Of a stretch of DNA of 64,000 nucleotides, positions 15,930 to 54,337 are shown piece after piece. The notes beneath the pieces were generated by a model. The model made no database searches. It worked only from the letters and a program-made list of their open reading frames with translations, and was not told the DNA's origin. Position 1 is the stretch's first letter; each line of letters opens with the position of its first letter. The stretch spans positions 60,693-124,692 of the forward strand of contig NW_003212973.1 in the NCBI RefSeq assembly GCF_000006405.1, read 5' to 3'. Origin of the DNA: Perkinsus marinus ATCC 50983 (Eukaryota > Perkinsozoa > Perkinsida > Perkinsidae). Position numbers and translations under genes: made by a program.

Positions 15930-18900
15930 TTACATATCGAATTCGAGGAGACGACACGTAGCTGTTGGTCCCCTTCCGATACGAGCCAGAGTACCGTTTT
16001 GAACCTTAACATCAACAGAAGTTCACCAACCATCACATTAGCGTAGTAATAGGATTATCACCAGATTATCAATGAGCTTGCCAACGTCATGCAGGTCCAA
16101 GGCATCAGCCGTTCCTTCATGATGTCCACCTCCCTCATCATGGTGTTGCATCGAGCTTACCAACTGCTCGAATACCTTCTGTCGTAGTATATCGTATTTG
16201 AGCGACTGAATAATACAACTACACCAAAACTGTGCACCAAAGTGGCTGACCCCAGTGGGCGAGGCCTGCAACAACTCCTTGATCGTTTGAATAGCCGCTT
16301 CCCTTTCCTGACGACGACTCTCACTCATACCGGTCGCAAGCATTGACATATCAATAACCCCAGTAACGGGATCAGTACCTATCCAGATGGAGCTGTATTG
16401 AAGTTCGACTAAAGAGTTCAAGATGAAGCGAAGAAGAAGCGCTCACAGGCTGATAATAGAGCCTCCTTCATCAAACGAATGGCTTCTAGCACATCATCCC
16501 CGGTAACCTGAATACCACTCCTTTGCCACTTCGTAAGCCAACATGGTTTACCTCTTCACGGAACTCCATCTTCGCCAGAGCTTCAGAAAGTCTGATAAGC
16601 GACTCCAACTGCCGAGGAGTCGCACTGATGGTTTTGCCTGAATACGATATGCCCAAACCAGGGATCGAACCCGCGACCTTTCCTCCTCACCCACAGCCCC
16701 ACTAGTGTTAGCATGCCTAAGCTTCAAGTACCCATCAGTGAGGATCTCCACTGCAGCATCAGTAAGGCGAGGCTTCAAGGAGCGTCCAAAGGCGATGTAC
16801 CTTCCGATGTGAGAATCATAACGACGGCCGTACGAGCTCTTCTGCGAGGCCTCAGTGGTGGAATATATGTTCGGTTACCTCAGCTGGGGTCAGGAGTCCT
16901 CTCCCTACATTATGAAAATTTACACACGAGAAATGTACAAATACCAACACTCATATTCAAAATTCCATCATGATTCTTTGTTGTCACCAACACACGTAAT
17001 TGACCATGTTTATATTTCTGTACCCTGCAAGCCCTTCATGTACAGCGAAAAGAAAGAAGCTTCACGACCTCACCTGGCCAGAGTGCCCTTGTCTATCGGT
17101 GGCTTCTCAGCTGCTGCCCCCGAGGCGTCATCCAACTTGGAGAAAAGCTTGACAATATGGCTTGCCAACGTTCGGTCGCTACGCTCGGTCCCGAGATCAA
17201 GAATCTAACGGGAAGCTTCATATCGAGGGAGGGGAGGAGGGAAACCTACTAAGTAGATGAGGTCAAATCTACTGAGGAGGGTCGGGTTCAAATTGATATT
17301 ATCAACCACTGAGCGCCTCGGATCATAGCGAGATTCAATGGGATTAGCTGCGGCGCATATAGCGGTCCCTGAGGTATGCTATTCTGCATCTTGCACGGTC
17401 GACCTCAAGATACGCTTACTGGCATTGAGGCTACAAATTATGCCTGCCTTCGCCACCGACACGGTCTGCTGTTCCATAACCTCATGGAGAATTGCTCTGA
17501 ACATTAAAATTACCCATCCAGAGTTCGAACCCGAGACCCTACCTTGCATGATCATCCATCTTATCGAACTCGTCAATACAGCAGATGCCCTTATCGCTCA
17601 AGACCAATGCACCAGATTCGAGAACCTAATCAACTCCCATTCGAACGACCCAGGTTCAATTCTCCCTCCCACCAATTCTTTAGTATCCGGATCCTTACTA
17701 ATATAAGCTGTAAGACCAACGGCTGAGGAGCCCTTGCCACTCGTGAAGACTCTAATCAAAATCATCCTTGCCAAACGACCTTCGCTCCGCCACCATTACC
17801 CTCGAGGAGCTATGTTATGAACATACTGCAGCAACTGGGACTTAGCTGTGGAGGGATCACCAATCAATAGGACATTGAGCTCACTCCTGACAAGCACATA
17901 ACAGTAAATGCTCATATGGGACGTGATGAAGGGTAATTAGAAAATATCCACGATAATTCAAGTCAGAGTGTTGACAATAAGAGTTCGGTGCTACGTATCC
18001 TACCGAAAGGATCCACGATCTTCAGCCTCGGTATCACCGGCCGTTGACTTATCGGTTCCACCGAACAATTGGCACAATAGACCCTTCTTCACCTACAAAC
18101 CGAAAGGTCCCCGGTTCTATTCCCAGCGAGGTTTCTACATCTTCATTCTCCCAGATAGACGGAGCGAAGCTCTTGATGAGATTAGTAACAATGTTAGGAT
18201 CAGCTGCCAGCTTGCGTAGTTCCTGAAGACATTGTTTTCTCCCATCAATCTTCAGAGACGGGCACCTCTTCCATCTCGGCATCACTAAGATCCCCTACAG
18301 CAGGTGCATCACCAACAGAGGCACCCATCGTCTCAATGTGGATAGCATCGATATAAGACCTGATCATACGGTCTTGACTACCAAGATAGAGACGGAAAAC
18401 AACTATGCCCTCCAGACATGAGCACGCTCTTGGTAAGCCTCTGCTGCAGTATGACACGTTGGGGTGATGCCTTGTATATGCCGGTTACTTCCACACGATC
18501 TCCTGGCTTAACAGTGTCGAACATCGAGTCGTATCTATAGAGGTCCCCGGTTCGATCCCTGGTCACATCACTTTGACCTACGCATATATCATAACCGTAT
18601 GAGGTGTCTCTCCCTCCGGTATGTTCTCCGGGGACTCCTGCAGCTTAATCAACTGTTTATCAGTGAACCTTAATCAACAGCGGAGCGAAGCTCTTGAACC
18701 CCACCCCAGGATCGACTACTTACACGCATTGATTATGTTCCAGTTCGAACGACTGCTTCTGATGACACTTAGGACAGGTCGTCGGCTCATCAATACGACC
18801 TGATTATCACAATACCGTCACCTCACCCTCCAACCATGACCACTACTACCTTTCTCAAGATTAACACTCACATGGTGTCCACAACCCTCAGTGGTACAGC

Positions 18901-20202
18901 GGAATGCGCCAACTTGCATATCCGGTATCAACACCGATGTACGAATAACAATACCCTTCAGAGCAACCAACTGAAGAGAGTAGTTATGCCGTGTAGAAGC
19001 ATATGCACATGATCAACTATATGTGTTAGCGACAATTTCTAAATTCTAAGCAAATTTTGGGGAATTCTCAATGGTTTCTGTACACTTCTACCCGAATTCG
19101 TATGTCACATTTCATAATTAATGAGGAAATTCATGACTTCAGCTGAGGAAAGCGAACATATATTCCCCCCAACATCGCCGATTCCAAGCCGATAGTTATG
19201 TGCGTTATCACATGCTCGATATCCGACGGATCGAAATCCCTCATAGTCCTCTTGTCCTTGTCATGGAGATTGTAGATTTGCACCTATCACCACAAAAATG
19301 GTAAACATACAACGCTTCGCTTCGCCATCATCGTCAGCCCGCACCTACTTGTACAACTGCAGCCGCAGCATTGATACCGGGAGTGTTCCGAACTATGTGA
19401 TTGTATAGCTGAAAAGCAATTGGTGATTTGCCAAAGAGATGGTATGGCTTACACATGCGTCCATGATCGGGATAATATCCATCGGAGCCGCTATCAAATC
19501 CGAGTACCTGTCTACCAATCACGACCTTTGCCACAATCCTACTTACAAATCCGGTGAGAACCGATGGAGATCTTGTGCATCAACAGGGAATACTTGTTGC
19601 TTATTCTCACTGTAACTGATCACCAAGCACTCAGCATTAATCATCTATTACATACTCCTCTTACCGTAACAGCTCCCTGCCGTATTTGCCTCTACCGTCT
19701 TCTCCCCCCTTGTCGAACCTATCACTTCAATGATGACCATACGACCATCACAAGACCCTCACTCGTCCAGGAACCTCATGAACAGTGTCCTAGCCTCGTC
19801 GAGTGGTATGCTACTGCCGAAAATCCTCTCTGGCTCGCCGCCGGCGCCGGCGCCGGCAGCGGCAGCACTGTTACCATCTCGCATTTGGGCATCTCCCGAC
19901 TGAATAATAACAACTCACGATAATCGATCAGAATAGGTAAGCCTCACCCCAGAGGCTTCCTCATCAAAGTCGATGGTGAAACGGAGGTCACCGATATCAC
20001 TACGGAAGCTTCTGAAGACGCTGCCAACTCCCATGCTACTCCCTGACACAGACTTGGGCTTATTCCGTATCTTACCAACTCAACCTAAAGATTCATACTC
20101 ACCAGGACTCCTGCCCATCCTCGCATCTATCTGATTGGACATCTCCAGAATATTCCTAGCCGGCGTCTGAGCCGGGACATCGGATGGAGTACCAGATGAC
20201 AT
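15930..20202 (-). CDS. MCM4: DNA replication licensing factor MCM4
   Basis: Subunit of the MCM2-7 replicative helicase. From the ATG at 20202, exons encode an acidic N terminus, [34 protein letters not shown], a zinc finger ([11 protein letters not shown]...CPKC), [37 protein letters not shown], a Walker A block ([19 protein letters not shown]), [14 protein letters not shown], Walker B ([11 protein letters not shown]), the sensor block AAANP, and [11 protein letters not shown] with the arginine finger. The tail [19 protein letters not shown] is characteristic of MCM4. The stop is at 15930. At least fifteen introns are needed. Two (16801-17073 and 18971-19211) hold Family A elements, and six of 46-55 bp hold Family C tRNA-like motifs. 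Short introns near the N terminus are provisional. Confidence 0.92.
16638..16690 (-). repeat. 53-bp MCM4 intron with tRNA T-arm-like motif (Family C)
   Basis: In gene orientation it carries GTCGCGGGTTCGATCCCTGG followed by TTTGGGCA. This resembles the variable region, T-arm and start of the acceptor strand of a tRNA. Removal joins SGAVG to [19 protein letters not shown]. Confidence 0.8.
16856..17018 (+). mobile_element. Family A introner-like element, forward copy
   Basis: Lies in the MCM4 intron 16801-17073, antisense to the gene. It begins GGAATATATGTTCGG and ends near CATGTTTATATTTC, with the shared internal block CACCAACACACGTAATTGAC. Removal of the intron joins TLAR to [14 protein letters not shown]. 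Confidence 0.85.
17497..17542 (-). repeat. 46-bp MCM4 intron with tRNA T-arm-like motif (Family C)
   Basis: Carries GTCTCGGGTTCGAACTCTGG in gene orientation. Removal joins DKMDDHA to [19 protein letters not shown]. Confidence 0.8.
17626..17672 (-). repeat. 47-bp MCM4 intron with tRNA-like motif (Family C, antisense)
   Basis: The plus strand reads CCCAGGTTCAATTCTCCC, opposite to the gene; a second GTTCGAAT word is also present. Removal joins [11 protein letters not shown] to [16 protein letters not shown]. Confidence 0.75.
18093..18138 (-). repeat. 46-bp MCM4 intron with tRNA T-arm-like motif (Family C, antisense)
   Basis: The plus strand reads AGGTCCCCGGTTCTATTCCC. Removal joins [11 protein letters not shown] to [15 protein letters not shown], the conserved MCM helicase entry block. 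Confidence 0.8.
18535..18581 (-). repeat. 47-bp MCM4 intron with tRNA T-arm-like motif (Family C, antisense)
   Basis: The plus strand reads GGTCCCCGGTTCGATCCCTG, pairing four of five stem positions around a TTCGATC loop. Removal joins HTVMIY to [17 protein letters not shown]. Confidence 0.8.
18669..18723 (-). repeat. 55-bp MCM4 intron with weaker tRNA-like motif (Family C)
   Basis: Gene orientation contains TGGGGTTCAAGAGCTTC. Part of it (CAAGAGCTTCGCTCCG) also occurs in an MCM4 exon encoding KSFAPS at about 18155-18175, an odd short sequence match within one gene. Removal joins LEHNQC to VFTDKQLIK. Confidence 0.6.
19000..19172 (-). mobile_element. Family A introner-like element, reverse copy
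   Basis: In MCM4 intron 18971-19211, sense to the gene. In reverse complement it begins GGGGGGAATATATGTTCGC and continues TTTCCTCAGCTGA. Removal of the intron joins DPSDIEH to [12 protein letters not shown]. Confidence 0.9.
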
Positions 20203-20450
20203 GAAAGCAACCTTTCACACACTGCCAAATCAACGACCAACCATCTCCCCCCAGGTGCTTGCAACATCAAATGAATCTCCTTGTCATCTCAACATATGAC
20301 AATAAACATGAATATTACCCCGCACTACCAAACTAGACCAGTCGAATAGTTCCATCATTATCTCGCCGTTCGAGGGAACGATATAGTAATAATGAATTTA
20401 CCCAACAATAACACAACAGAGTGTGATGAACTGAAACTTGGATACCGAAA
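20203..20450. other. Short intergenic region between MCM4 and NSUN genes
   Basis: Upstream of the MCM4 ATG and downstream of the NSUN stop. No ORF or repeat is recognised. It presumably holds the MCM4 promoter. Confidence 0.4.
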
Positions 20451-22362
20451 CTAGGTCGATTTCCTCTCTAGTGTAGCACTAAAGAAACCGTCCATACCTT
20501 TACTCTGGGGCATGGCATGCATGGGCTCTTCTGATAATACTAATTCATGGAAGCGACACAAATGCTGTATCTGGGAATATATGTTCGTTATCTTCACTCA
20601 AGATAGGGAACTGAAGATTCCTCAGCTGAGATCAGAAGTTTTTCAACCTGTTGTAGTTCGAGTTTACATACGAATTTAGGTATAAAAGCCCACAAGAAAA
20701 ATCTCCTAAAATTTCCCCATAATTTTCATATCGTCACCAATACATGTAGCTGAGCATATTTTCCCCCACCCCCCGAAAGTCACCTGCAGTATATTTTCCT
20801 CATCTAAAATACTATTAGTACAGTACACCAACTTGCCGCCTTTGGGTTTGAGATATCTAACCAATCTTGCTCACACTTGCATTTCCTCAATGCATATCTA
20901 CCGCAGTGAATTCCTAACAATTTCCCTTTGAAGGGCCACAAAATGGAAGAGCTTCTCATCAGAATACATCCACTTCGCATCCGGATTCCGGCGGAGAACC
21001 CCCGTCCTACTGCATGGGACCTGACAGGCATATCTTAGGTTCACTCTAGCAAGATGCAAAATTGGTCCGGAAGGTTACTACATCACATAGGACCCAATCA
21101 CATTTGCCCAATAACATCTTATGCAGTGTCGGATGCCTCGGATATAGCAAAGTATAATTCCTTATACCAGCCCGGCGTAGCCTCTTCCTAGCGTCCCTTA
21201 ACATCGAGTCCCGTACCTAACCCTATGATCATCATCAACTATGGAGTGCATACAACACCCTACATCATGTAGATATAGATGACCAGTATTCTGCATGTTC
21301 GGGCCGAACACCAACGACTTCCCTCCACTTCCGGCGCAGTAGTCCAGGACCACACTGCCGGGATCAGCTTTACTAATAATTTCGTGGCGCGCGGTAATTA
21401 TCAGATGATAATGATATCTTACACTTGTAAGGCCATTATCTGACTACTCTCATCCTGTATCTCCACTGCTCCCGATCGATACCTACTCTCAATAATTTCA
21501 TGGCGCGTGACGGTGAATGCATACTACTCAGGTAAATCCAATAACAACTTCTTATCATTGATAACCAATCCCACCGGACTAGTAGCCGTTTTCTCAACCG
21601 AAATTTCCTTACTCAAAAGAAACTTCATCATATCAGAACGCGATGACTGAACCAAGACTAAACTCACCAAAAAGGACATGATACTATGATGAGAAGCCCC
21701 CCTTGAGAGGTTCAATAGGCCACTACTACCACCCTAGTGCGTATGGTCAACCGCATAGGCTGCCGTGTGGATGAGGAAATTTTTGGGAGATTCTCATTGG
21801 TTCCTGAATATTTCTACCAGATTCGTATTAGAAACTCTCTGGTTGATGGAGGAACTCCCAGCATGTAAGAAGCGAACATATATTCCCCCAACACTTTCCG
21901 TCTGACTAGGCTTCTGCATGCTATGCACACACGCGCGTGGAGCACGAGAAACCTATGATCGATTTCCATGCTATAAAACAGAGATCGTTAGATTCTGTTT
22001 ATCAAGAATTCTCTATCCTATACCATTTCTGTTCCCTTTTTCCGGTCTGGAATATTCATCATGAAAATGATGATACCCGCCTTGAATTTCTCAAAGTGTT
22101 GAATATTGAATATAATTTTTCCCTAGCATTTCTACAAAATAACAGTGTTAGGAGAGGCAGCCTCTCCTGAGCTCGCATAGAAAAGCTATATCGGTGACAC
22201 GGACCACTCTTTCTAGATTGAGCGTAGTACTGTATGCATACTAACCTGATTAATATTGACCCGTAGGAAGGTCACTGGCCTCTCATTCAACACACTGGAT
22301 ACTTCGACTGCTTTGTCTGTTCCCAACGAATCAGCAAGTCGCCCGAATAGTTCCTTCGGCAT
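20451..22362 (-). CDS. NOP2/Sun-type RNA m5C methyltransferase with altered catalytic motif
   Basis: From the ATG at 22362: MPKELFGRLADSLGTDKAVE, RPVTFLRVNINQ, LLLDLP-DRYRSGAVEIQDE and SSQIMALQ. Then VVLDYCAGSGGKSLVF (SAM motif I), CDWVLCDV-PCSRTGVLRRNP (motif IV with its Pro-Cys), WMYSDEKLFHFVALQREIVR, YLKPKGGKLVYCTNSILDEE and NILQ, ending GMDGFFSATLERKST at the stop at 20451. The order and spacing are those of RsmB/NSUN cytosine-C5 methyltransferases. The usual T-C-S catalytic motif reads T-N-S here, with a Cys two residues upstream, so the canonical nucleophile is missing. Two neighbouring introns carry Family B motifs, and two carry Family A elements (20571-20783, and one near 21.8 kb). 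The exon between 21.74 and 22.25 kb is not resolved. Confidence 0.8.
20571..20783 (+). mobile_element. Family A element that almost exactly equals an intron
   Basis: The 213-bp last intron of the NSUN gene. On the plus strand it starts CTGGGAATATATGTTCG and ends near GCATATTTTCCCCC, followed by 16 nt to the splice donor. The splice acceptor CAG is built from the element's terminal repeat. Removal joins DEENILQ to IQHLCRFHELVLSEE. Confidence 0.9.
21378..21395 (+). repeat. Family B intronic motif in NSUN gene (1)
   Basis: AATTTCGTGGCGCGCGGT, antisense to the gene. The enclosing intron joins SSQIMALQ to a segment leading into KADPGSVVLDYCAGSGG. Confidence 0.75.
21495..21514 (+). repeat. Family B intronic motif in NSUN gene (2)
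   Basis: AATTTCATGGCGCGTGACGG variant in the next intron upstream (about 42 bp). The intron joins LLLDLP to DRYRSGAVEIQDE. Confidence 0.75.
21770..21892 (-). mobile_element. Family A introner-like element, reverse copy
   Basis: The reverse complement begins TGGGGGAATATATGTTCGC and ends in the GGAACCAATGAGAATCTCCC region. It lacks the far terminal repeat. It lies in an intron-rich part of the NSUN gene, sense to the gene. Confidence 0.8.
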
Positions 22363-23304
22363 CGACGTGCGTATCTATATTCCAATATATTATCCATACC
22401 ACACCTTCCCCACTTCTCACATGAGGATCTAGTCTTCTATTCTGTGCATTACTTCGCCACCGATCACTAGTGAGGTAGGTATCTATCATCACAACAACAC
22501 CTCCACATATCCCTCTGCACCATTATCCCTCTTACATAACCTCCCACGAGTTGATACCGGCTTAGGGGTACAATGATCGATCAACCCTTGCCAACGGAAG
22601 AGCTCATACCTAGACCAAGCTTATAAGGCTTTCTCCCCCACGAATGGTAAATCTGTACGAAAACTACACGAAAAACCACTCAAGTGAGCTGAATGGGAAG
22701 CCTTGTAGAGGAGACGCATTGATCAGGAGTATAGCGCTGGTTTTTTTAAGATTCCATTTACAAATTAGAGTCAACACCGTATTCGTAATTCACAACGTAG
22801 TATCACAGTATAAGGTTCTAGGATATGAATTCCTATCATATATTAATAAAGTCCAACAACATGACCGTTTCACTCTAGTATATGAAAACTCATCACCGAA
22901 TCTAAGCCTTGGTGAAGTTTCAGAGAAAGTACTTAGAACTGCTAAGTTAGCGAATTTTCGCTCCTTACATGAAAAAAAAGAGGAAAGTGGCACAAAACCG
23001 AAGTGATAAACAGTAGAAGTGTGGGCTTACATATGGTCTGATATCCAAGCACGGTCATCAGCATTGATAGCTCGATGGGCTTGGAAATATCTATGGTTGG
23101 GAAATACCGTCACGCGCCACGAAATTCCCTACCGATGAAGAAACATATCCACTGGGGTGTGGTGCTGCTTAACCTTATCAAAATGGAGTAGGGCGTTCTC
23201 CAAATGCCGGACTCGGAAAGCATTCATATTAGAAACAACTGCGATTAGTAGTAATAAACCATCAAACCAAACATTCCCTTTTTATCCGATACACACCATC
23301 ACAA
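22363..23304. other. Unresolved stretch with AT-rich ORF and one Family B motif
   Basis: Contains a 120-codon plus-strand ORF at 22644-23006 of AT-richer composition (ending LHEKKEESGTKPK) that I cannot assign. It also holds a Family B motif at 23106-23126 in reverse orientation (CCGTCACGCGCCACGAAATT). Nothing here is supported as a gene. Confidence 0.3.
23106..23126 (-). repeat. Family B motif outside a resolved gene
   Basis: The reverse complement is AATTTCGTGGCGCGTGACGG, matching the variant at 21495. GT and AG words flank it, so it may mark an intron of an unrecognised gene or UTR. Confidence 0.6.
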
Positions 23305-24088
23305 TCATCGACTAAACCGTGCACCATCTATCTCCTCCAGTTTCTTTATTAATTCCCCACGCATTCTCATCCATACCTCATCCTTGGCAACAGCGACCGC
23401 ACTAATAACCTGATGGGGCTCAACTCGCCCTACGTATTCCTTCATATCGAACCTGTCGAGCAACCTGACGTGGTCCTCTCAACCACATCCTCTTAAGTAA
23501 GGCCAGGAGGTCTGATAACTCCGGATAGGGTGATTCCTCACTAACCTGAGCACACCTAGATCAAGCATCCAACTTGGTTAACTAAACCTGGGATATGATA
23601 TTACCTTGAATGACCAGCTTTGAAATATATTATCAAGATTTACACACGAGTTAGGGTAAGAGTATACAAAACCAACTAGAATTTCCCGAAATTTTCTCAG
23701 AATTTTCATGTTATCCCCAGCATATGTAGCTTGCCACATTGTTAGTATCCCTTTGCTGTTGCTGAGAGACTTCCAATAAGGTTGCATATTCACGGAATAG
23801 ATCTTCAACCTGGTGCTCCACCTAAAATCCACTCAACCATCATCATCATTTCAGCATAACCTTATAACCACACACTTTAGTCAATACAAGTTTCAAATGG
23901 CGGTTCTCCAAATGCAGAGCTTTGTTATCAGCCACTAGCCTCTCCACCTCCTGCTTCGATAAGCATCTATCACCAGGGGTCAAGGGCTTAGGGCTATCAC
24001 TCTCAGAAGAGGGAGCTGTAGATAGTAGTATAGGGGAGGAAGGCAGGGACATCATCGGATGGTAACCTCGATGAGACCCCGATCCCAC
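23305..24088 (-). CDS. Coiled-coil (bZIP-like) hypothetical protein
   Basis: The ATG at 24088 opens MGSGSHRGYHPMMSLPSSPI, followed by a Ser/Pro-rich stretch and the helix QEVERLVADNKALHLENRHL. Later exons read VEHQVEDLFREYATLLEVSQ, YPELSDLLALLKRMWL and VISAVAVAKDEVWMRMRGEL, then KKLEEIDGARFSR before the stop at 23305. The first helix has leucine-zipper spacing with a short basic stretch nearby, but a bZIP basic region is not clear. One intron (about 23.58-23.76 kb) contains a Family A element. Function is unknown; a DNA-binding or scaffold role is only a guess. Confidence 0.5.
23612..23742 (+). mobile_element. Family A introner-like element, eroded forward copy
   Basis: Retains the central blocks TTTACACACGAGTTAGGGT and AATTTTCATGTTATCCCC. 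The 5' terminal repeat is eroded (GAAATATATTATC). It lies in an intron of the coiled-coil gene, antisense to it. Confidence 0.7.
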
Positions 24089-24518
24089 TGAATATTCTGA
24101 GGCTATATCCTAGTATGCTAATGCTGATGGGCTACTATCCACTAAAGTATTAAAATATACTATTATTAGAAGAGCTCAACAGTTATGTATTGAGACGATG
24201 ATAATAATGAACGATATGAGTTATAATAATAATTCGATATGCATTGTATGATCGACAATACAATACTCAATTACTATCCATATTTGTCAGTGGACCTTTT
24301 CAGTTTTAAAAACATATTACTACCAAAACTGTGCGAACATCATACTAAGCCGATGATGATAGTATAAACAACACAATTTTGTATATGTTCGAGGAGAAGA
24401 TCTTATCACCATACCATTTAATACATCATAATCATTATATTTCCAAACCCTTCCCGGAGATCCACCCATTTACCAAACACTGAACAGCAACAAGCTCGCT
24501 GTAAAGAAGTCGTGAAAA

Positions 24519-24906
24519 TCAGAAAAATTTCTTCCATCCGGCCAACAACGATTCAGGAGTGCAGACCGTCGCCTCCCATTCGGGTCTCTTCTCAATCGTA
24601 CTCAGCATCATAGAGCATTGTGAAGGTAACGGTGGGAGCTTACGATAGTGAACTCCCGCAATACTGTACTGATACCTAATGACGACGCATGCGACCAAGC
24701 ACTGTTACCTAGGCCTACAGTAGTGGACATAACTTGACCTGCAACTCTGTGATTCTCTTAGCATTCGTCGTTGGAGGTAGAGTTGCTAATACTTCATTTA
24801 ACGCTTTAACAGCATCCATCAAAGTAGATGGATTAGCCGTACCCTTCATCGTGGCGAACCATGCAGATTGGAAGGCTTTCAGCTGATATAATAACCAACA
24901 ACTCAT
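24519..24906 (-). CDS. Small hypothetical protein, two exons
   Basis: The ATG at 24906 gives MSCWLLYQLKAFQSAWFATM, KGTANPSTLMDAVKALNEVL, ATLPPTTNAKRITELQ and, after an intron of about 60 bp, YQYSIAGVHYRKLPPLPSQC, ending ESLLAGWKKFF at the stop at 24519. That makes about 110 residues. No family is recognised. The open frame across the junction and the lack of alternatives support a real gene. Confidence 0.4.
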
Positions 24907-25594
24907 TTTGCGCACCTACCCTATAGATATAATGTATACTATTTAATATTAATACCTTTAAAATTATATTATGATATCATATAATCATAACTATACGTTA
25001 GATCAGTACAATGGGATATCCATACAGATATTAACATGATTGCGGAGCGAGCGAAGCGAGCGGAGCTTATGTTACTGCGCACGAACACTCGTGTGCGTGC
25101 GTCCGTCCGTCCGTCCGACCGACCGTGCGTGAGCAAAAATTCCGACCCGACCAGGGCGATTCAGAAGACAAACAGGGTATCATTCTGTCCCTCGTTGACT
25201 GCTCATCAGCGTAAAAATATAGCGAAAGTGTGGCTGTTGCTTTTCCCGCTTATTTTTGACGAAATGGTTCTTCGCACAAGAGATGAACTATTAGCTCAGT
25301 ACGTTAGTGACCACGACTCTCAACCGAACGGCCCAGGGTCATATCCCACGATGTTCATTTTCTCACATGTCTCTATAAGGAGACAGTGGTCGGCCACGTC
25401 GACGACGCCAGCCAACCCCCGACAACCTTTTGGTTTTCAGTCACCCAATTTCCAAAATAATTTCAATAAGAACCCGCTAAATTCTTGATAAGAAGCTCAG
25501 CGAGCTCCGCCCCTTCGAACCGAAGACCTAGTATTATATAATACTGGTTATCATATATATTAATAATACGGCTGGACTATGATACTTGGTCCCT
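24907..25594. other. AT-rich spacer followed by a low-confidence open stretch
   Basis: 24907-25030 is very AT-rich. A plus-strand 150-codon open frame (25036-25488) begins in a self-complementary GCGGAGCGAGCGAAGCGAGC tract and has no protein-like features. I treat it as noncoding. Confidence 0.4.
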
Positions 25595-25596
25595 TT

Positions 25597-25692
25597 CCTC
25601 GGCTGAGCTTAGGAGTTAATACACGAACCGGGGTAGGAGTGTACAGAAACCAAAATTACCACAAAATCGTCATATGTGCATATGTTTGCATA
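25597..25692 (+). mobile_element. Family A introner-like element, partial forward copy
   Basis: Begins at the CTCGGCTGAGCTTAGGAG block and contains GGGGTAGGAGTGTACAGAAA. Both ends are truncated. It lies directly downstream of a splice donor in the GST-like gene. Confidence 0.7.
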
Positions 25693-25699
25693 TCCCTCA

Positions 25700-26301
25700 C
25701 CTCATTATCGATGACTTCCCTCTCCTGTGTAGTAGTACTTCCCACAACATCAGGACATAGCTGCTGTAATATATCCTCGGAGTCGGCAATGATAGTATCC
25801 TTATATACCCATACAGGGACAGTCCTAACAGCAGAATAGCGATTCTATCACCACACCATTTCCAATTCATGATGGAATTGCTAGAAACACCAATTCTTCC
25901 AATCATAAACCCAAATCTGTGATTTATCCAAAACTTCCACTATAATCAATCTCACAGTAGCTTTGAGTTAATTTCGAGCGGCTGAGTTGTGTTAAACTCA
26001 TTGATATGATTCATCGTAGAAGGCAACCACAGAGACACCACTACCCTACCCTTTAGGATTGGCCTGCAACAATTCGGCTGACTTCTTGGTCATATCTTCC
26101 AACTTCAATATGTAGTCATTAATGCCTTGAGAAGCCAGTCCTAGACGAGCCTGAGTTGAACATTTTGATACCACACCTTTCTGAAATGATCACCTTCTGT
26201 GTGAAGGGGCAGTCACCAATGATAGTAGGGTCCTGGACAGCCCCTTTGGCGTACAGTATCGGCTTCTCACTAACTACTGATGATTGGATTGAGCTTGACA
26301 T
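25700..26301 (-). CDS. GST/dehydroascorbate reductase (CLIC)-like protein, 3' end unresolved
   Basis: Exon 1 (26301-26194, 36 codons) ends QDPTIIGDCPFTQK. This has the G-D-C-P-F-x-Q-x active-site motif of the DHAR/CLIC branch of glutathione transferases, in which the Cys forms a mixed disulfide with glutathione. Exon 2 reads ARLGLASQGINDYILKLEDM, TKKSAELLQANPKG. Exon 3 reads TVPVWVYKDTIIADSEDILQ, the thioredoxin-fold Val-Pro cis-proline and the E/D-S glutathione-binding motif. After IDNE a donor leads into an intron holding a partial Family A element. The helical C-terminal domain expected from the family was not found downstream. Confidence 0.65.
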
Positions 26302-26735: not shown

Positions 26736-26782
26736 GGGGTAATCATTCGGGGGTAGAATTCCTACTTCCGAATGATAACCCC
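26736..26782. repeat. 47-bp inverted repeat
   Basis: Arms of 15 bp (GGGGTAATCATTCGG at 26736-26750 and CCGAATGATAACCCC at 26768-26782) pair at 14 of 15 positions, around a loop that is itself nearly palindromic. It lies about 140 bp upstream of the MAPEG start. It could be a small foldback element or a promoter or terminator structure. Confidence 0.75.
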
Positions 26783-27804: not shown

Positions 27805-30800
27805 ATGTCGTCATCTACTGGTGGCACGCCGGGGATAGCTGGTGGGTTGAAGAGGCTGGCGGAGTTCAATAAAGCTCTTACAGCATTACCAGCGAAAGCA
27901 TCAGAGAAACAGATACAGGACATGTGTGCCTTGGCGATGGAGATGCCGGATGAAGCGTAATAAGGGAGGCTTCATTTCATCTGGAAAGCAATCATCTCGT
28001 AATTGGGGGAATATATGTTCGTTTTCCTCATCTGAGTTCGGGAGGGTCCTCACTGGTTTATGCAGTTCACATACGAATTAGGGTAGAAGTATACAGGAAC
28101 CAACAAGAATTTCCAGAATTTCCTGATAATTTTCATATTGTCACCAACACACGTAGTTGGGCATGTGCATCGTCACACATAATGAGGTACTCCTCTATCT
28201 CCGTGTATAGCAGCACTATCTTGGATATTCCTGCCCCGTGTAATGACTAATGCCTTTGATAGGTACGATGTCGTCTTAGCCATCACTAACGATATTAAGA
28301 ACGTCGGCAACAGGGTAGGGCCTGCCCACATTAGCATTCCTACAGGAGTCATCTTAGGCGGGTGCGGCTCAACAACAGCGGATCAAAACGGTGATCTCCC
28401 TCGTGGATACTCTTTTGAAGGCAAAACCTCCTGGAGGGCGTTCGAATAAGGGAAGCTCATCTGTGGACAACAGCTATAGGATATACATATTGAAGAGCAT
28501 TGATGATATCTTTGTAGCAGCACTGAAGAGAGCAGATCAATCGGTGAGAGTTGAGAAAGGTGTGGTATGAGTTAATAACTGTGATAGACCCACTCTTGGT
28601 TGGAACGTGTATTGGAGAGGTGGAAGGAGCAGGGCAATGCTCTTCTGCCCGAGAGGATACTCAATAGATTGACGGCAATGCACGGTAACGTTAAACCCCA
28701 AGTTAAATCGGTGAGAACACCCTAACCCTTCTGATGACCTCCCATTGGGGTCATGCTTGGTAGATCCTTAAGGGCTCTGGAGGGGGCTCGTCTACACATC
28801 CTTCCTCCAATCGGTCATCATCATCATCGGCAGCAACAACAGGAAAGGAGGGCAAACGTACTAGAGGGCTGCGATACTCCTCGAATGATACAGTATGACG
28901 TAGGCTGTTGTGATACACGTCTTGCAATGTAGTATAATGTTGCACCCAAACTACTCTACCATCGTAATATGTTTAATACGATATATCATCATTATCTATG
29001 TATACTGTGTATCCCCGTAGTGACTATGTTGTTTTGGTGGTCTCAGCTTTCGCCAAGGAGATTGCTTTGGCCGAGAGGGAATTGGACCTCATTGGTATGA
29101 TCCAGTCTAAGAGCTTTAAGAACTCCAAGGACAGGAAGGATGTAAATTTAACATACTAATGTTGTTGTTACAATCTAGTACCCTTTAGGCTATGAAAATC
29201 CACGAAGTTCGTTTAGCTGCGACTCGTTTGAAAGAAGGCAAACGTAAAGAGGCATCGAAGACCCTCTCTGATGCTAAGAAAAGTACTCCTTAGTGCGTCA
29301 TCAGTGTCTGGACGTAGTGCTGGCATTTAGAATATGCTCATATGGTGGAGGTGTGGAAGAATAAACAGGCCGAGGCGATGAAGGCTAACGAGGCAGCAGC
29401 AGCTACCTCGTCATCATCCCTTACTGAGGAGGAGGAGGAGGTTGTAGACACGGCAATGGAGGAAATACCAGGTCATGGGAAGAGGGCGAGATTGAATCGT
29501 GAAGAGAGGGAGGTGTGGTATTGGAAATAGAGGAGTCATTGTTGACTTATGTCCTTCCATTGTCTCAGTCCTCAAGTTCACCAGAGCCCCCTATTAAACG
29601 GAAGAGTAGGTCGAATGCTGTATGGGGGGAATATACATTCGATGGTTTTTGCATCAGAATCTACAACTGAGGTCGCCGGTAGCACCAGCAGTGATGAAGG
29701 TGGTGATCATCGTGAAGTAGGGCATGAGGAAGGGAAGGTGAGCATCTTGCAATCTTGCTATTCCTCAACGCACATCTGCAGATACCATCCGGGATACTGG
29801 GCTCACCGCCAGACGACTTGCCGCCGATGGAGTTCTCTCTCGAGTGGATTCAGCATTTTTTCATGATGGTGAATTTTTCACGCGCCACGAAATTGGGAAA
29901 GACTATCCTTCAGATGTCATCAAAGATTCCCTATCATCCCTCCCATGATGTTCTTTTAGCAAGTAAAGTTAAGACCGTTGAGCAAACGCAAGAGCAGGTG
30001 AGATTCCAAGGTTGATACAAACACCCATCCCTCTCCAGCGTGTAATCGTCGATGGCTTATCACAGCATGAGCTGCTCCTCGTCCTCCGGTTCATCGAAAG
30101 GTTGGAGACACATATAAGAGTGCAGGTGAGCGATGATACGGGCGACGGCGGCGTGGGAGACTACGTACATGACTATGAGGAAATTCTGAGGAAATTTGAA
30201 TATTTTTGTTGGTTCTTGTATACTTCTACCCCCAGTGCGAATTAACGAGGCAACTCCCGAGCCGTATATTCCAATATTGTCATGGATTGGGTGTAGGTGG
30301 CAGAAACGAGGAAGTTGGCAGCAGCTGCGGCGGCTAGTGGGAAGAAGAATCAGGGGTTAAGTCAAAAGGCTCTGGCTCATATTCAAGTGAGTGTTTGTTC
30401 AATTTCGTGGCGCGCGGTCATCTGTCGTAGGTACCCCATAAATTTCGACTGCTGCACTCGATGGGCGATCCATCGACCTCAGGGTTACTCGATCTTTACT
30501 TCAACATGCCTGTAGGCAGCATGTGTAGGGGAGGCCCTTGGTGGACATCCCTCGACAGGTCCAGTGTGGAACTTGTGCTCTTCGATTTGCCATACGACAG
30601 GATCTTCTTGATCATCATGATGCACACTACTTGAAGACAACTATGCTGCAGAGACGAGTGAAGCAGGTGGAACAGGAATACCGAGGATGGAATGAGGCTG
30701 GTAGGCGTCATACACTCGGGGTGTAGTAGTAGTAGTAGTAGTAGGATGTATTCCCTTTAGTGAACGATTGGTTCGATAATAAGGGGACGCCAATGCTTGG

Positions 30801-37156: not shown

Positions 37157-40100
37157 ATGCAGAAGACCCCTCAAATGGCGTGGTGCCTCCTGTCGGCATT
37201 TTCCATCAAAGGCCTCTGTTGCCTCCTCGTAACAACCTATATACTGGACATAGTCATAACCACTCATCTCACCTCGATCAACCTCCTATCAACCGGAACT
37301 CTCACTCGATTATGTATCAGCCGAATCGTTCTCACCCCTCTAGCTTTCTTATCGGCGTATGTAGTGTGGAAGAGACGAATTGGAAATATACAAAATGTTG
37401 ACGATGAGCAGCTACTGTTACCACTCACTGGTGGTGAAGACTTGTCGATTGAACGTGAGAGGTTGAGGACTATTGCATGGCAGAAAAAAAAGAGTGGCAA
37501 AATTATGAATACCATATTATCGGGAGCATTCATGGTGCAAACGGTCTCAGCAGTGATGACAGGTGTTGAAGCTGTCCAGTTGGATCAGCACTTCAAATCA
37601 GCTGTTGATGTAGTCATGCTATGTTCTATAATTTTATGGGCTAATTTGGAGTATTTCCTCAGCAAAGATATCTTTGATGCCTCGTGCGCGGATTCAGGTG
37701 AGGTCCTAGTTGGTGTTCATCTCCATCCAGTGTTCTTCATGCCGGAGATGAAGTGCCATTCGTGTGATGTATGTATGGAACGTATCGAGGACGATGGCTA
37801 CCGCTGTAAGACCTGTGACTTTGATGTTTGCCTTCGATGCCACGCCCGTCACCGTCGTGAGAGCCCACCTCTTGGTGCTGCTGTTGGTCCGAGTGGTGGT
37901 GGTGGCCTTAGTCTTGGTCAGTTCTTCTGTCGATCGATTCAACTGGCTTTGGAGTTTTGGCCGACTCTAGTGGCTGCTATGGTATGCATGTTGGCTTGTC
38001 AAGCGACATTATTGGCAGCTCCCAATCTGCAAGGTAAAATATTCGATTCTATTATAAAGTGGGACCAACAGCTGTTCACTCACACTGTGTACGTATATCT
38101 ATGCGTTAACCTACTCCAAGGCTTCCTCGCAGCAGTACAGAGCCTCACACTCAACTTGGTGGCTCGTCGAATCAGGGCTACTGTGTGCCGAAAACTTTAC
38201 GTGTCTATCATTGGTCAGGACGTGTCGTTCTTTGATGCTACGCATACTGGTAACCTCACATCGAGGTTGTCGAACGATGCTGCGGCAATGACCAACCCCT
38301 GTCGAACGATCCTTAATAATCTGCTGGCTAATGCTGTCCTCCTCTTGGGTGGTGCTATTATGTGTTTTATCACCAATTGGCGTCTGGGAGTGTTAGCGGC
38401 CACATCAATGGTGCCGATCTCCTACGCGTATCGTCTGTATGCTCAATGGTCAAGGCAAGTCTACTCGACTATCTATCAGGCCTTAGGGGATGCTAACTCA
38501 GTCGCTACGGAGAGTTTCAGCAACATTCGAACGGTGAGAGCTTTTGGAGCTGAGGACACTGAAATCGGCAACTACAATGAGGCAGTTGAAGTAGGACTAA
38601 AAGCAGGAGTGAGAAGTGCTGTTGTTGGTGCTGGTGTTTATGGTTATGCGAAGTACATAGATTTGGGCACGACAGTGTTGATACTGTGGTATGGGGGAAG
38701 CGCTATATTCAGCGGGAAAGGGGCCACCTTGGGAACGCTGGTGGCATTCCAGTTGTACTGGAACATGATGAACGGTGCATTCAATGCACTCAGTGATGTT
38801 GTTAACGATCTAATAAGGGCAGCCAGCGCAGCTGAGCGGGTCTTCAATTTGATGGACAAACGACCCGGGATCGATCCCCACGAGGGTCGTGAAGTTGACG
38901 ATATTGTGGGGGAAATTAAAATCGAAAATCTGAGTTTTTGTTATTCTTGCCGGCCAGAAAAGATGGTATTGAAATCAATCGATCTCGAGATGCATCCCCG
39001 CACTGTGACGGCACTAGTCGGCCGATCTGGTGGGGGTAAGAGTACGTTGGTCCATCTACTACTACGATTCTACGACCCTATTGAGGGAAGGGTACTCATG
39101 GATGGTATCGACTATAGGCAATATAGGCCCTCTAGCTTGAGGTTGGTAGACCCCGAAGGGCAGCTGGTGATGATATGTCAGGTCGAGGATTGGACTGGTC
39201 GCTCAGGACACGCAGTTGTTCTCTACGTCCGTGTATAAGAATTTGGTATATGGTCTCGACAGAGAATGTAAGTAATGTTCACTCAGAGATGGTATGCTTA
39301 GGCGAGTAATAGGTAGTATGGAGGAAGTGGTATCAGCAGCTCGTATGGCCAACGCTCATGAGTTTATTGAGGAGATGGATGAGGGGTATGAAACTCGAGT
39401 GGGGGAAAGAGGCATTCGACTCTCGGGTGGCCAGAAGCAACGAATCGCTATTGCAAGGTAACGGAGGATTGCTATGGTGGCAGTGTGGGGAAACATACAT
39501 ATGGTCTGACCATATGTGTCGGTGACAATATGAAAATTTCGGGGAATTTCTCGTTGGTTCCTGAACACTTCTACCCTAAATCGTATTTATATTCCTGAGC
39601 TCAGCTGAGGAGGAGAGCGAACATATTTCCCCCCAACACTGTACTGTGGATTAGACTACCCTCTCAGGTGTTTCCTCCGACGACCTCGTGTGCTACTCCT
39701 AGATGAAGCCACTAGTGCTTTGGACACCGAGAATGAGGCGTTAGTCCAGGCAGCCCTCGATGGGTGGGGTGCACTGGTCTGGAGGGTTCAAGGGCTTTAT
39801 GTGTTAGATTGATAGCAACGGGAGGGTGTACAGTCATCCTGGTAGCTCATCGGTTGAGTACTGTTAAAAACGCTGATATGATCGCTGTTATCAGTGAGGG
39901 AAGAGTAGTTGAAAAAGGAAGGCATGATGAACTTGTTGGAGAAAACGGTAAGTCGTAATTGATCATCTTGAGAATATTATGAGAGATAGTTCGGACGAGT
40001 CCAGTGCCGTTGGAATATATGTTCGTATTCCTCAGCTGAGCTCAGAAACTCCTCCAATAAACGAATTCGGGGAGAAATATACAGAAGCCATTAAGAACTT

Positions 40101-40322
40101 CACAAAATTCTCATGTTGTCACCAACACACGTAATCGACCATGTGCATATTTTCCTCCCACACCTAAAGAGTCTGTTGGCGATGATTAGATTTGTCCAAG
40201 TCGATCTAAGTATGCTCCTCCTAATAGGTGTGTATGCTAAGCTGGTGGCACGACAATTGAGTCACGATGGTAACAGGCTTACAGTAGATGAAGTGTATGA
40301 TAATGAGGTGAAAGCGGCATGA
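37157..40322 (+). CDS. ABC-B half transporter with inserted ZZ-type zinc finger
   Basis: Six exons (37157-39141, 39182-39267, 39313-39457, 39668-39763, 39808-39947, 40228-40322) give an 848-residue protein. Order: N-terminal membrane helices, a ZZ zinc finger at about residues 198-234 ([20 protein letters not shown] then [13 protein letters not shown]), an ABC transmembrane domain ([31 protein letters not shown]), and the nucleotide-binding domain. The last has Walker [11 protein letters not shown]-loop LVAQDTQLF, signature [13 protein letters not shown], Walker [13 protein letters not shown] and H-loop AHRLSTV. It resembles TAP/ABCB exporters that act as dimers. The Met at 37157 is tentative. 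Introns 39458-39667 and 39948-40227 each contain a Family A element, in opposite orientations; the other introns are only 40-45 bp. Confidence 0.9.
39486..39634 (-). mobile_element. Family A introner-like element in ABC gene, reverse copy
   Basis: Intron 39458-39667. Contains GTTGGTTCCTGAACACTTC and ends CGAACATATTTCCCCCC. The near terminal repeat overlaps an imperfect palindrome (CATATGGTCTGACCATATG). Splicing joins QKQRIAIA to [17 protein letters not shown]. Confidence 0.92.
40011..40160 (+). mobile_element. Family A introner-like element in ABC gene, forward copy
   Basis: Intron 39948-40227. Begins TGGAATATATGTTCGTATTC, contains CACCAACACACGTAATCGAC and ends CATATTTTCCTCCC. Splicing joins HDELVGEN to [15 protein letters not shown]. 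Confidence 0.92.
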
Positions 40323-49378: not shown

Positions 49379-51346
49379 TCAATGAGCAGCATCATCCACA
49401 CGGTCGTTCACCTCGTCAGGGAGGCCCTCGGCATCCTCGGGCGAGCCACTGATCGTGCTCTGTCTCTTCTGTTGGCGGCTCGCCTGCAGCTTATCACGAT
49501 GCCTAGCATACTCTCGACGGACCTGAAACGTCTCCAAAACGATCGGATATTCAACCGCTGATGATCGACCTGCTGAAGAACAGTTTCCTTCCATCGTTTG
49601 AACTCCTCCTCGTATTCCTGAGACGGGATCATAAAAGCCACTAATGAGGGAGTGGCCAACCACCTGCACTATGCGTTCGGCTTTGTCCTCTGCTCTAGCC
49701 CGGGCATCACACTGGGCCGTCAACTCCCGTGCATGGAGGGTATCCCGCAGCTCGAGAGCAGCTAACATGGACACTACTCCATCGTAATAGCAACAACATC
49801 GAGTTACCTCTCGCCTTGTTGAGCATGGCCAAGGCCCTCGACAGAGCCGACTCATATTCCTCCAGATCGAAGTTGTAGGTCGCAGGAGTACCATCTGAAT
49901 CTGGAGGGCTGTCCGGACCAAACCCGACAAGGGCGTTAATTTCGTATCTGCGCGAACTGGGCAGCGGCAGAGGGGATAGTAGCGATGCCCACAATAGGAC
50001 AGGCCTCAGCTCAGCTGCTGTATGGCCGAATGCGGTGGGGTCGTCTAACAGCTCTAGAACTTCGTTGCACATGTTACAGAAGGCGTATCTTTCAAGAGCG
50101 CTACCTTCGCGGTACAGAGCTGCTGCTTACCTCGCAGGGGCCGGCGGATGTTTCTTAAGCCGACTTGAAGTGGTCAAGTCAGCACCGACGAGTTCCGTCC
50201 AGAGCCTCTTGAGGCCCTTGCCTGACCAGTTGTAAGAGGCGGCCTCAAGTGAGGGACTTTCCTGTTACCAGAGAAGTAGGAAGAGCCTCGACTATCCGTG
50301 TGGTCTGAAGAGGTACTACTGAGCTGTTGGACCTACCACACCAATCTGAACTAATCGACCATTGGTGTAGGTACCTCCATACGACAGGAAAGCTCATCGT
50401 TCCTAGCCTTCATTGTGGCCAGTTCGACCGCCTGGTCCACAACTTTACTCTGCAGAATCACCACTTCAGCGGCCTGATGATCCCACAGGTCGCCTTGCTC
50501 AGTGGTTTAGGAATCGAGTACAGTGTTGGATATTTGAGCTTCAGCCTGCTCTCGATACTCATAGAGCTCTCGAGAGACAGCATTCAGTTGAGCTTGGAGT
50601 TGCTCCTGAGAACTATTCTTAGTGCAGATTCATTCCGTTTGGGATATTCACAGTTTTAGTCCGATCGATCACCGCTGTCTCCTCTGCTTTCTTAGCGTGT
50701 TGTCGCCAGTCTGCCGACACCTGATCGTCGCCAGTCAGTAGTAGTAGTGTATAATAAATACTCACTTGCTTCAGCTTAGCTACCTCCTCTCCTCGATGCA
50801 TGAGCTGTGCATGAAGACTATCCCGTTCCCTCCCGAGCTGTTGTACTCGACCCCTACACTCCTCCTGAAGAGCCGATGAGGCAACAGCCAGTGCGGGGAA
50901 AGTCAACCACATATGTTCGTGGCAATATGAAATACTCTGAGGGAATTTAGAAAAATTATTGTTGGTTTCTGTACACTTCTACTCGAATTCGTATGTTAAC
51001 TGCTGAGCTCAGCTGAGGAAAGTGAGCACAAACTCCTCCAACACACCTCAAGGTCCGCGAGCCTCCTCTCGATCACACTATCATCCGATGCTTCTTCTGG
51101 AGTATTACGCCGATCATCGTAGTCGATTCCCACGCGTGTCGCTGGTCCGAATTTGAACTTCTCTGCTGAGGCTGGCTGCCACCTTGGACGTTGGGTTTCT
51201 AGTAGCCTCTCTAACTCGCATATTATGCATTGGGTGTAGGAGCAAGTGCCACAACGATGAGCTATGATGGAATCATCGTTGAAGAACGTCGCTACCTGAG
51301 ACCAGTTCATAGGGCCTCTGAGAAGTAGTGTTGTTTTACGACCCAT
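49379..51346 (-). CDS. Coiled-coil protein of unknown function
   Basis: Minus-strand exons read ERRLADLEVCW, LQEECRGRVQQLGRERDSLH, AQLMHRGEEVAKLKQ, VSADWRQHAKKAEETAVIDR, DHQAAEVVILQSKVVDQAVE, GLKRLWTELVGADLTTSSRL, NMCNEVLELLDDPTAFGHTA, NFDLEEYESALSRALAMLNK and LAALELRDTLHARELTAQCD, ending NDRVDDAAH at the stop at 49379. Heptad-like, charged helices dominate. A start at about 51346 (MGRKTTLLLRGPMNWSQ) is likely. A Family A element at 50909-51042 sits in an intron. No family is recognised; a cytoskeletal or centrosomal scaffold is only a guess. Confidence 0.5.
50909..51042 (-). mobile_element. Family A introner-like element, reverse copy
   Basis: Contains GTTGGTTTCTGTACACTTC and AGCTCAGCTGAGGAAAGTGA. 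The outer end is altered (GCACAAACTCCTCC). It is intronic in the coiled-coil gene. Confidence 0.82.
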
Positions 51347-51409
51347 CCGAGGCTGCATACAGTGGAGTTTTATCCGTGATGAAAAACACTCATGAAAAAC
51401 ATATTTCAC

Positions 51410-52491: not shown

Positions 52492-52986
52492 TCAATGTCC
52501 GACCACATTATCATGCTGCCCAGAAGCAATAGCAATCACTTGATCTATCGAATCTTGACCAACACCTGAGCAGCGAGTGAGGTATAACAACTAAGGTTAA
52601 ATTCGTCACACTTACCCAACTCCTTCAAGGTGTTGGTGAGGTTCTCAACAACAGCATCGAACTGTAATTCGGTGATGTTGTAGCCCTCATGAGCTGCTCT
52701 CATACTACACAAGATAGAGCTCATTCACACACAGGGAGCAGTGGCCACGCACCTACGGCCAGTGTAGTTATTGGGACCACCAAATGCGTATGTTAGGAAG
52801 TTTCTCTGGTGATCTTTAAGCTTGCTCATATCAGTCTTAGCAAAAACGTTCTTGATGCGCTCATCCGAGAGGTTCTTCTTATAAAACCTGAAGTAATAAT
52901 CATCCAACACACTTGAGGGTAACTTACAATTCAACTGCGGCATCAACAGCAGGGGCGCCACCAATCGTCTCGTAGAGGGAAGACAT
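52492..52986 (-). CDS. Group 1 truncated hemoglobin
   Basis: Four exons (52986-52928, 52887-52753, 52704-52616, 52565-52492) with introns of 40, 48 and 50 bp encode 118 residues, the usual trHbN length. MSSLYETIGGAPAVDAAVEL is the diagnostic L-Y-x-x-I-G-G start. VFAKTDMSKLKDHQRNFLTY contains the L-K-x-H-Q helix. FGGPNNYTGRSMRAAHEGYN contains the G-G-P-x-x-Y-x-G-R and the proximal His in A-A-H. The end reads FDAVVENLTNTLKELGVGQD. Likely roles are O2 binding or NO detoxification in the cytosol. No signal peptide. It is unrelated in subtype to the globin at 36.5 kb. Confidence 0.93.
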
Positions 52987-52999
52987 CGTACGAATGACT

Positions 53000-53545
53000 A
53001 ATACTAGACGATCAAAGAAAATACGATTGTTCCTTCACAGAGTGGTGCAAAGAAGTACCCTGATAATTTCTCGGTGAATATCACGCAAACACAGATTTCA
53101 TTTTGAAGCACTCGGTGATCTCTTTAATAGGTGTTGTGAATGATGAGGTGCTCACATGAATATCCTAGCATTCTCCTCCATATCAGGTTTATATGTATCG
53201 TCATAACTCGTCAAGTTTGTGAGTGATTCAATTATCATGATTATCAAGCGTTCGCTGAGTACTTCAAAATGGCTGATTTTTCTAATATTCACATGTGCTG
53301 AGGGGTCACCCTATATTCTATACAATACAACTTCATCACAAGGCAGATCCTATCAATCATACCCGTCAAAATAGTGCTCGCTTTCCTCGACTCGGAAGTT
53401 TACTTATAAATTCGGTCGCGGAAACCAATGAGAATCTCCCCAAATTCCCATTTTGTCCATGTGCACATTTTCCCACAGAGTAACATCATCACATAACAAT
53501 ACACTACTTCACAAGGAGACACTCATCTGTTCAATCTAATAGTAG
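53000..53545. other. Intergenic region with a partial Family A copy
   Basis: Upstream of the truncated hemoglobin and downstream of the CZIB homologue. A degraded Family A copy lies at 53376-53476. It is the only copy I could not place in an intron. Confidence 0.5.
53376..53476 (+). mobile_element. Family A element, degraded forward copy
   Basis: Recognisable from CTCGACTCGGAAGTTTAC, GGAAACCAATGAGAATCTCC and GTCCATGTGCACATTTTCCC. The 5' terminus is missing. It is not inside a resolved intron; it may be in a UTR intron or truly intergenic. Confidence 0.65.
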
Positions 53546-54337
53546 TTATACTTTTTCAAGTTTCCACTGAAGATCATATACTCCAACAGAAGCCTCATTA
53601 TCAGCATCATATTCACACCAGTCATCACTAAGATCGATATCATTGAATAAAGTACCTGTACACGAAATTGATGACCGTCGATAAGCCACGTACAAACCTC
53701 CAACGCTTCTGCCTTGGTACCCCCTCTCAGGGTGCCACTTGGTGATCTCACAACCACGACATTCGAATGCTATTATAGGTACCTAGCCAGAGAGAGAGGG
53801 TATGGCAAGCGTGAAGTGCTCGAGGTGTGGTACCCATTTGCCACTATTCTCAGCAGTATATTTAGCTTCGATGCGCATCCTCTTAACAGCTGTTTGGGTG
53901 ACAGTGGCCTCTTTCTTTACCTCTTTGAAGTGTAACACCAAATTCGTCATTCCTCGAGAACCACTCATCTGAAACAATAAGGCTGCCTCGAAGGTCAACT
54001 CCTTATAACGTATTCTGCTCAGAATCAATATTGCAATATAATATATCTTTCCTCAGCTGAACTCGGAAGTTTCCTCACTGAATTCGGGTAGGAGTGTACA
54101 GAAGCCAACAAGGAAATTTCCAAATTTTCTTTCATATTGTCACCACCACATGTAGTTGACCATATGCATATTCTCCCACATTACCTGTTCCTCACGCATG
54201 CAGTTCAAAATTACTCGTTCCCTTACTTCATCAGTGTTAGTGCCAGCAACATCTATGCACCAATCATGACTAGGAGATGCTGAGATCTGCGATAAGCCAT
54301 CTAGCTTGGCATTCATATACAGTACTTGAACAACCAT
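53546..54337 (-). CDS. CZIB/C1orf123 (DUF866) homologue lacking the CxxC zinc ligands
   Basis: Four exons (54337-54185, 53968-53834, 53782-53698, 53655-53546) give 160 residues, the length of the human protein. MVVQVLYMNAKLDGLSQISA, then the block MSGSRGMTNLVLHFKEVKKE, ENSGKW-VPIIAFECRGCEI and NDIDLSDDWCEYDADNEASV match DUF866 (G-S-R-G-x-x-N-L-V, then V-x-F-E-C-R-G, then W-x-x-Y-D). The two C-x-x-C pairs expected after the first block and within N-L-V-x-K-C-K-x-C are replaced (DVAGTNTDEV and LHFKEV), so zinc binding is probably lost. The first intron (53969-54184) holds a Family A element. The biochemical role of the family is poorly known. Confidence 0.88.
54036..54178 (+). mobile_element. 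Family A introner-like element, forward copy
   Basis: CZIB intron 53969-54184. Contains TTCCTCAGCTGAACTCGG, GGGTAGGAGTGTACAGAAGC and ends GCATATTCTCCCAC, six bases from the splice donor. Antisense to the gene. Splicing joins NCMREEQ to MSGSRGMTN. Confidence 0.9.

Follow-up and report, generated by a model that had tools for sequence, protein, structure and literature searches.

Family A, a short inverted-repeat element of Perkinsus marinus, is in all likelihood a non-autonomous hAT-type MITE that spread in this genome, and its intronic copies survive through host splice sites located outside the element. The copies are probably passengers and not makers of new introns, i.e. the insertions mostly enlarged introns that already existed. 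This reading is built on direct observation of the repeat, its ends, the TSD length, a related empty site, the residence in introns and the native-size residuals at resolved sites. At the well-resolved sites donor and acceptor are external to the element and the residual has the size of a native intron, hence the intron most simply predates the insertion. The original prediction, that the elements are acting as introners, is unsupported at the best-resolved sites, where removal of the element leaves a GT-AG intron of 40-54 nt between outside splice sites, and no clear residue gain is seen at five junctions.

In the window, i.e. the whole 64-kb stretch of DNA that was analysed, 13 places match the family A profile at E<1e-6, and a repeat of the search with nhmmer was concordant. 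The profile was built from 12 window copies, so those 12 match by construction; the only match beyond the training copies is at 53374-53479, with E=3e-7 in the profile search. The number of 13 copies given in the original prediction agrees with this count, and the interior blocks that it described recur at these places. A possible additional start at 29625 was dropped as it has no profile match.

The P. marinus genome (54.46 Mb, 347 contigs) was searched with one copy and with end patterns, and family A is found in over a thousand places. That the host is P. marinus follows from spliced peptides agreeing with proteins of P. marinus ATCC 50983 in 97/97 (ES1) and 63/64 residues (NSUN, copy c); in addition, the alanine-transaminase frame of the window has 93% identity to a P. 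olseni protein. One copy alone has at least 43 genome-wide matches, with the best 40 of 1,468 first-look candidates scored. The right-end pattern of 31 bases is found at 1,212 places with at most three mismatches and the left-end pattern of 27 bases at 2,321, the latter number being inflated because tandem arrays of the left end are present. The reversed-pattern control gives 0 places for both. Family A is a genuine repeat, chance matches being excluded by these controls, and the genome carries at least 1,200 copies, as counted from the right end. The density is very uneven. A sample of six 10-kb stretches, 60 kb in total, was drawn at round positions from contigs where a copy was already known, and it contains 11 profile matches; eight of these, array units among them, are located in one AT-rich stretch with Ns, therefore no copy-number estimate was drawn from this sample.

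The left-terminal 53-64 bp are tandemly repeated several times at L012:1160-1492, L024:1268-1483 and L065:1-320, in each case adjoining a copy. Further runs of left ends are found at C10:51903-52097 and C55:145304-145745 and on C153 and C181. Tandem repetition of this type was seen for the left end only. These arrays may help to explain the difference between the left and right counts, the two patterns also differing in length.

The aligned flanks place the true ends of family A at CAGTGTTGG(AGG)AATATATG ... CATATTTTCCCACACTG. The element extends from CAGTG to CACTG, and the sequences GGGGGAATATATG and CATATTTTCCCCC, proposed earlier as the outer ends, lie 6-7 bases inside it on each side. Of the 117 matches to the family, 72 are nearly full in length, and 34 of these have both ends recognisable (at least 7/9). 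The 34 copies have a median length of 181 nt, a median divergence from the family majority of 0.147 and a median pairwise identity of 0.74, values which indicate that the family is old. Because 15 of them were obtained as best hits to copy g, the sample leans to well-kept copies. The sample is not random. Besides the 15 hits it holds three places of the exact 13-base end given in the original prediction, four window copies and, for the rest, neighbours in the fetched loci, and two of its members (L020 and L022) represent one duplicated site.

The 8-mers flanking the element match in at least 5/8 positions in 13 of the 34 copies, compared with 1.3 expected from re-paired left and right flanks; in the other 21 the TSD is below 5/8. 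The identity of the flanks peaks at length 8 only, with a mean of 0.43 vs 0.21-0.27 at lengths 4-7 and 9-11. Exact TSDs are present in L071 and in L011; the left TIR of the L011 copy is poor, and the 34 do not include it. A genome-wide search with 11 joined flanks found no clean empty allele among the best 40 of 1,043 candidates scored; the L006 piece held part of a neighbouring family A copy and drew many of the hits. The only element-free hit that crosses a junction led to L027, where a copy with a TSD of 7/8 and a left TIR of 6/9 (outside the 34) interrupts a degenerate minisatellite. The joined flanks of this copy align unbroken through the insertion point to two neighbouring minisatellite stretches (214/262 and 201/269). 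Judged from these alignments, the neighbours show what a related site looks like when empty. The flanks of L011 and L036 each have a second place in the genome, with a spacing that implies an element there too. Two pairs of duplicated or allelic regions were observed, C9:505058-505387 and 510477-510815, and C237:181675-182027 and C301:12611-12963. In each pair the flank spacing implies an element at the same site in both members, and C301 also matches a family A piece between the flanks.

Elements of the hAT type have an 8-bp TSD and a TIR consensus of C/T-A-R-N-G, and hAT-superfamily MITEs carry TIRs and an 8-bp TSD, as family A does. Family A fits hAT by its TSD length of 8, visible in the flank-identity peak and at the related empty site, and by the CAGTG at both ends. 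As in MITEs, the elements are short (median 181 nt) and present in high copy number (1,212 right-end places). The anatomy of a non-autonomous DNA transposon that had been predicted is confirmed by the TIRs, the 8-bp TSDs and the more than a thousand copies.

The hAT dimerisation domain has 14 matches in the genome, all above the cut-off. At C254:146997-149171 we find a 725-aa frame with PF05699 and PF14291, and a lone family A left end lies 323 nt past the end of this frame. Neither a matching left terminus nor a TSD was found at this locus, and the candidate flanks CGAAAGGA and CCGACTCA differ. The locus is dense in TEs and crowded by a nearly complete family A copy and another repeat, and we rejected it as a proven autonomous partner; the frame is a candidate partner only. 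Among the other hAT loci, family A sequence is present in L060 and L065 only. The suggested search for an autonomous transposase with the same ends yielded the 14 domains and the candidate on C254; no autonomous element was proven to carry the matching ends at its two sides. Three loci (L045, L046 and L047, on C79, C157 and C333) contain an identical 266-aa hAT-type frame.

The hAT-superfamily MITEs BniHAT-1/2 of Brassica nigra (PMC7385995) are similar to family A in being non-coding and of high copy number. Family A differs from them in its protist host, in the arrays of left-terminal 53-64 bp beside some copies and in having a candidate partner only. The Dada elements (PMC3706591) are DNA transposons of P. 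marinus as well, however of another superfamily; they encode a transposase, have a TSD of 6-7 bp and include families inserted in tRNA genes. We found no report of a Perkinsus hAT MITE or of a Perkinsus introner in the open-access literature, and family A is apparently a hAT-type MITE family not described there, of a kind that is already known.

In agreement with the intron residence described in the original prediction, 12 of the 13 window copies, as a raw count, are intronic. Seven (b, c, d, e, f, j, l) are placed in introns by a protein or homologue and five (a, g, i, k, m) by reading frame with GT-AG only. Perkinsus proteins were aligned to the DNA with a purpose-written spliced aligner. 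A codon-usage test of splice position was too weak, gave spurious junctions and was discarded. The orientation is mixed as predicted, with five copies in sense (b, d, g, k, l) and seven in antisense (a, c, e, f, i, j, m).

The names MCM4 and ABC transporter given earlier to two of the genes are supported by peptide alignments to PDB chains. In MCM4, a gene on the - strand, copy a (16853-17027, + strand) is in the intron 16837-17073 with the flanks AGGGCTTG and AGGCCTCG, and copy b (18989-19177, - strand) is in the intron 18971-19211. Copy b has an exact 8-mer direct repeat, CATAACTA, but this is 15 nt from the element on one side. In the ABC transporter, copy j (39481-39641, - strand) has the TSD TATGGTGG/TACTGTGG within the intron 39458-39667, and copy k (40002-40165, + strand) the TSD GACGAGTC/AAAGAGTC within the intron 39948-40227. 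The spliced peptides of b and j align over the junction to PDB chains of MCM4 and ABC transporter, respectively.

Four element-bearing introns (c, d, e, f) belong to the model P0121. The earlier names NSUN and GST-like agree with the Pfam accessions on this model, which we take to be the NSUN and GST-like domains, and P0121 may be a fusion of two genes introduced by the annotation. Copy c (profile match 20567-20779, + strand) fills the NSUN intron 20571-20783, where 63/64 residues of the spliced peptide are identical to a protein of P. marinus ATCC 50983. Copy d (21737-21896, - strand) occupies part of an intron of 599 nt (21647-22245) in the same, protein-based gene model. Copy e (profile match 23605-23756, + strand) lacks its left terminus and lies in the intron 23546-23737. 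Copy f (profile match 25577-25695, + strand) is in the 818-nt intron 24883-25700 after a GST-like exon; this intron is given by the P. marinus protein and replaces a downstream exon chosen initially.

Copy g (27997-28184, profile match 28001-28189, + strand), the top-scoring copy in the window, is in the intron 27957-28262, and copy i (30149-30279, - strand) in the intron 30126-30296. Copy l (50889-51046, - strand) lies in the intron 50865-51046 of a coiled-coil-like gene, an intron supported by homologues of P. olseni and P. chesapeaki. Copy m (54026-54183, + strand) lies in the intron 54002-54184 of a gene for which protein comparison found no homologue. In both l and m the donor is at the element end. 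The 13th copy (53374-53479, + strand) is degraded and has no gene support.

Outside the window, ES1 (L071) has an exact TSD, GTGAATCA, and its spliced peptide is identical to a P. marinus protein at 97/97 residues. An EamA-domain transporter (L006) has two element-bearing introns with three elements, and two such introns are found in L036, whose gene carries a PF05983 domain and is annotated as mediator-like. L011 was excluded, its gene model being unreliable around the element. At c, d, e, f, ES1, L006 and L036 the element is absent from the annotated P. marinus proteins, which are predicted sequences. A second short palindromic repeat, with the ends GAGTTTCACCCG and GGGTGAAACTC, shares an L036 intron with a family A copy (L036:1166-1688, intron positions about 168-292). 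It has many BLAST hits among the fetched loci, and similar words were seen by eye near L053:5470.

For 15 introns with usable boundaries we calculated the residual, that is the intron minus the element minus 8 nt per element, where the 8 nt were subtracted throughout, including b, c, e, g, i, l and m in which no TSD is visible at the element ends. Introns d and f contain much additional non-element sequence and were omitted. The residuals are 330 nt for L036 intron 4, 110 for g, 108 for k, 92 for L006 intron 4, 54 for a, 46 for e, 44 for b and for ES1, 41 for j, 40 for L006 intron 1 (two elements) and for L036 intron 6, 32 for i, 17 for m, 16 for l and 0 for c. The short element-free introns of the same genes measure 40-73 nt (n=27); a hand list of 28 element-free introns, including one of 91 nt, has a median of 46. 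Introns of 126-745 nt with no family A match and one implausible alignment intron of 27 nt were left uncounted. Seven of the 15 residuals (j, a, b, ES1, L006 intron 1, L036 intron 6, e) are 40-54 nt, i.e. these introns revert to a normal short intron when the element is removed. Many introns near 45 nt (27 of 40-73 nt) stand beside longer ones, some with family A, in the window at 20454-26301 and in L006, L011, L036 and L071.

At the best-resolved sites both donor and acceptor are outside the element, the exception being e, where the donor is 4 nt inside the element end. If family A were an introner, each element would enter an exon and make a new intron there, with the splice signals in the TIR (CA^GTGTTGG) and the TSD. 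Both TIRs start with CAGTGT, a potential GT donor in either orientation, and the donor is within 4 nt of the TIR in e, l and m and 8 nt away in c. However, an introner should have boundaries at the element ends or TSD and a residual of about 0, with no older intron left, and 12 of the 15 introns keep 32-330 nt of non-element sequence; 0-17 nt is found in c, l and m. Nor is there a clear sign of a TSD that straddles the splice junctions in register. Direct repeats in this register match at 7/8 in i, helped by the AG^GT consensus, and at 6/8 in three introns including l, but six element-free introns also reach 6/8, and the mean is hardly higher with the element (4.59/8, n=17) than in free introns (4.04/8, n=27). 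Five junctions (b, c, j, l and ES1) were tested against homologues, and in none of them is there a clear gain or loss of a residue; for P. olseni and P. chesapeaki the comparison covered proteins. ES1 is gap-free against P. olseni, and two metagenomic relatives and a PDB chain show small gaps near the junction. For copy c we considered an exon insertion with the TSD ATACTGCA/ATACAGCA and rejected it, as the homologues show no three-residue gain. Beside copy l, a stretch of 24 nt that is open in frame separates the element from the acceptor; it is missing from the proteins of P. olseni and P. chesapeaki, thus it is not exon in these relatives. Taken for all copies, an introner origin is quite unlikely. 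The residuals of l, m, c and i are below the 40 nt minimum of the 27 short element-free introns, and in c, l and m they are too short for a native intron, so a few introns may be made by the element. That c, l, m and perhaps e form such a minority, with CA^GTGT(T/G)GG of the TIR as donor in either orientation and all others passengers, we consider unlikely. The donors near the TIR in c, e, l and m would fit both shrunken flanks of old insertions and TIR-borne donors taken into use.

The intronic share of 12/13 in the window would also be expected if the transposase of a hAT-like MITE had an active preference for introns or intron-like DNA. However, purifying selection accounts for the same pattern, and most copies of the 60-kb sample are in one 10-kb cluster, so we regard such a preference as very improbable. 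Spread of intron copies by reverse splicing or intron transposition would explain that the copies reside in introns and that their sequence is similar between introns. Against this, the unit is bounded by TIRs, boundaries that equal the splice sites are not seen in most copies, both orientations occur (5 sense, 7 antisense), j and ES1 have 8-bp TSDs within the intron, and other copies are found within a minisatellite or clustered together. This last model is hardly credible.

Amoebophrya and the dinoflagellates are akin to Perkinsus. Huff et al. are said to have described in 2016 introners with the anatomy of non-autonomous DNA transposons, with TIR and TSD, located in introns of an aquatic protist. 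The introner families in the main text of Gozashti et al. 2022 (PMC9860276), where the word Perkinsus is absent, have TSDs and TIRs, and their splice sites are carried by the element or recruited from the TSD. They resemble family A in the non-autonomous DNA-transposon anatomy, the TIR and TSD, the intronic location and the aquatic protist host; family A differs in that the splice sites are mostly outside the element, with 32-330 nt residual in 12/15. The introner elements of Amoebophrya, as described by Farhat et al. 2021 (PMC7789003), share with family A inverted repeats in introns, in a dinoflagellate relative. Their direct repeats measure 3-5 nt and overlap the exon/intron boundaries, their splice sites are non-canonical and they have no family-specific IR motif, whereas in family A the 8-bp TSDs are located within introns and the splice sites are canonical GT-AG.

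Two other repeats were observed in the window. Three head-to-tail copies of a 2.38-kb unit occupy 56981-62486, two of them with a 498-aa open frame, for which the one frame tested gave no Pfam match. A 28-bp tandem repeat array is located at 11006-11757.

In the mechanism that we favour, a hAT-type MITE of about 181 bp (CAGTG...CACTG, 8-bp TSD) would have spread to at least 1,200 places, cut and pasted by a transposase presumably acting in trans, and would now be old, with a median of 15% from the majority. Insertions into coding sequence would have been lost. Copies in the numerous short introns (about 45 nt) would survive because the host splice sites outside the element still excise the enlarged intron, and splicing of the element-bearing introns is predicted accordingly by the model.

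Old family A copies explain part of the long introns in the examined gene models. What is left of the intron once element and TSD are removed can be compared with the native intron length, and this comparison makes it possible to distinguish, from sequence alone, between an intron-resident MITE and an introner. By this measure family A provides a counter-example, and does so in an aquatic protist, the type of host from which most introner reports come according to the main text of PMC9860276. If c, l, m and perhaps e were indeed made by the element, it would be a MITE caught partway to an introner, one genome showing the two outcomes side by side, and if a few copies of the c, l and m type were true intron gains, family A would be a test bed for the transition from MITE to introner.
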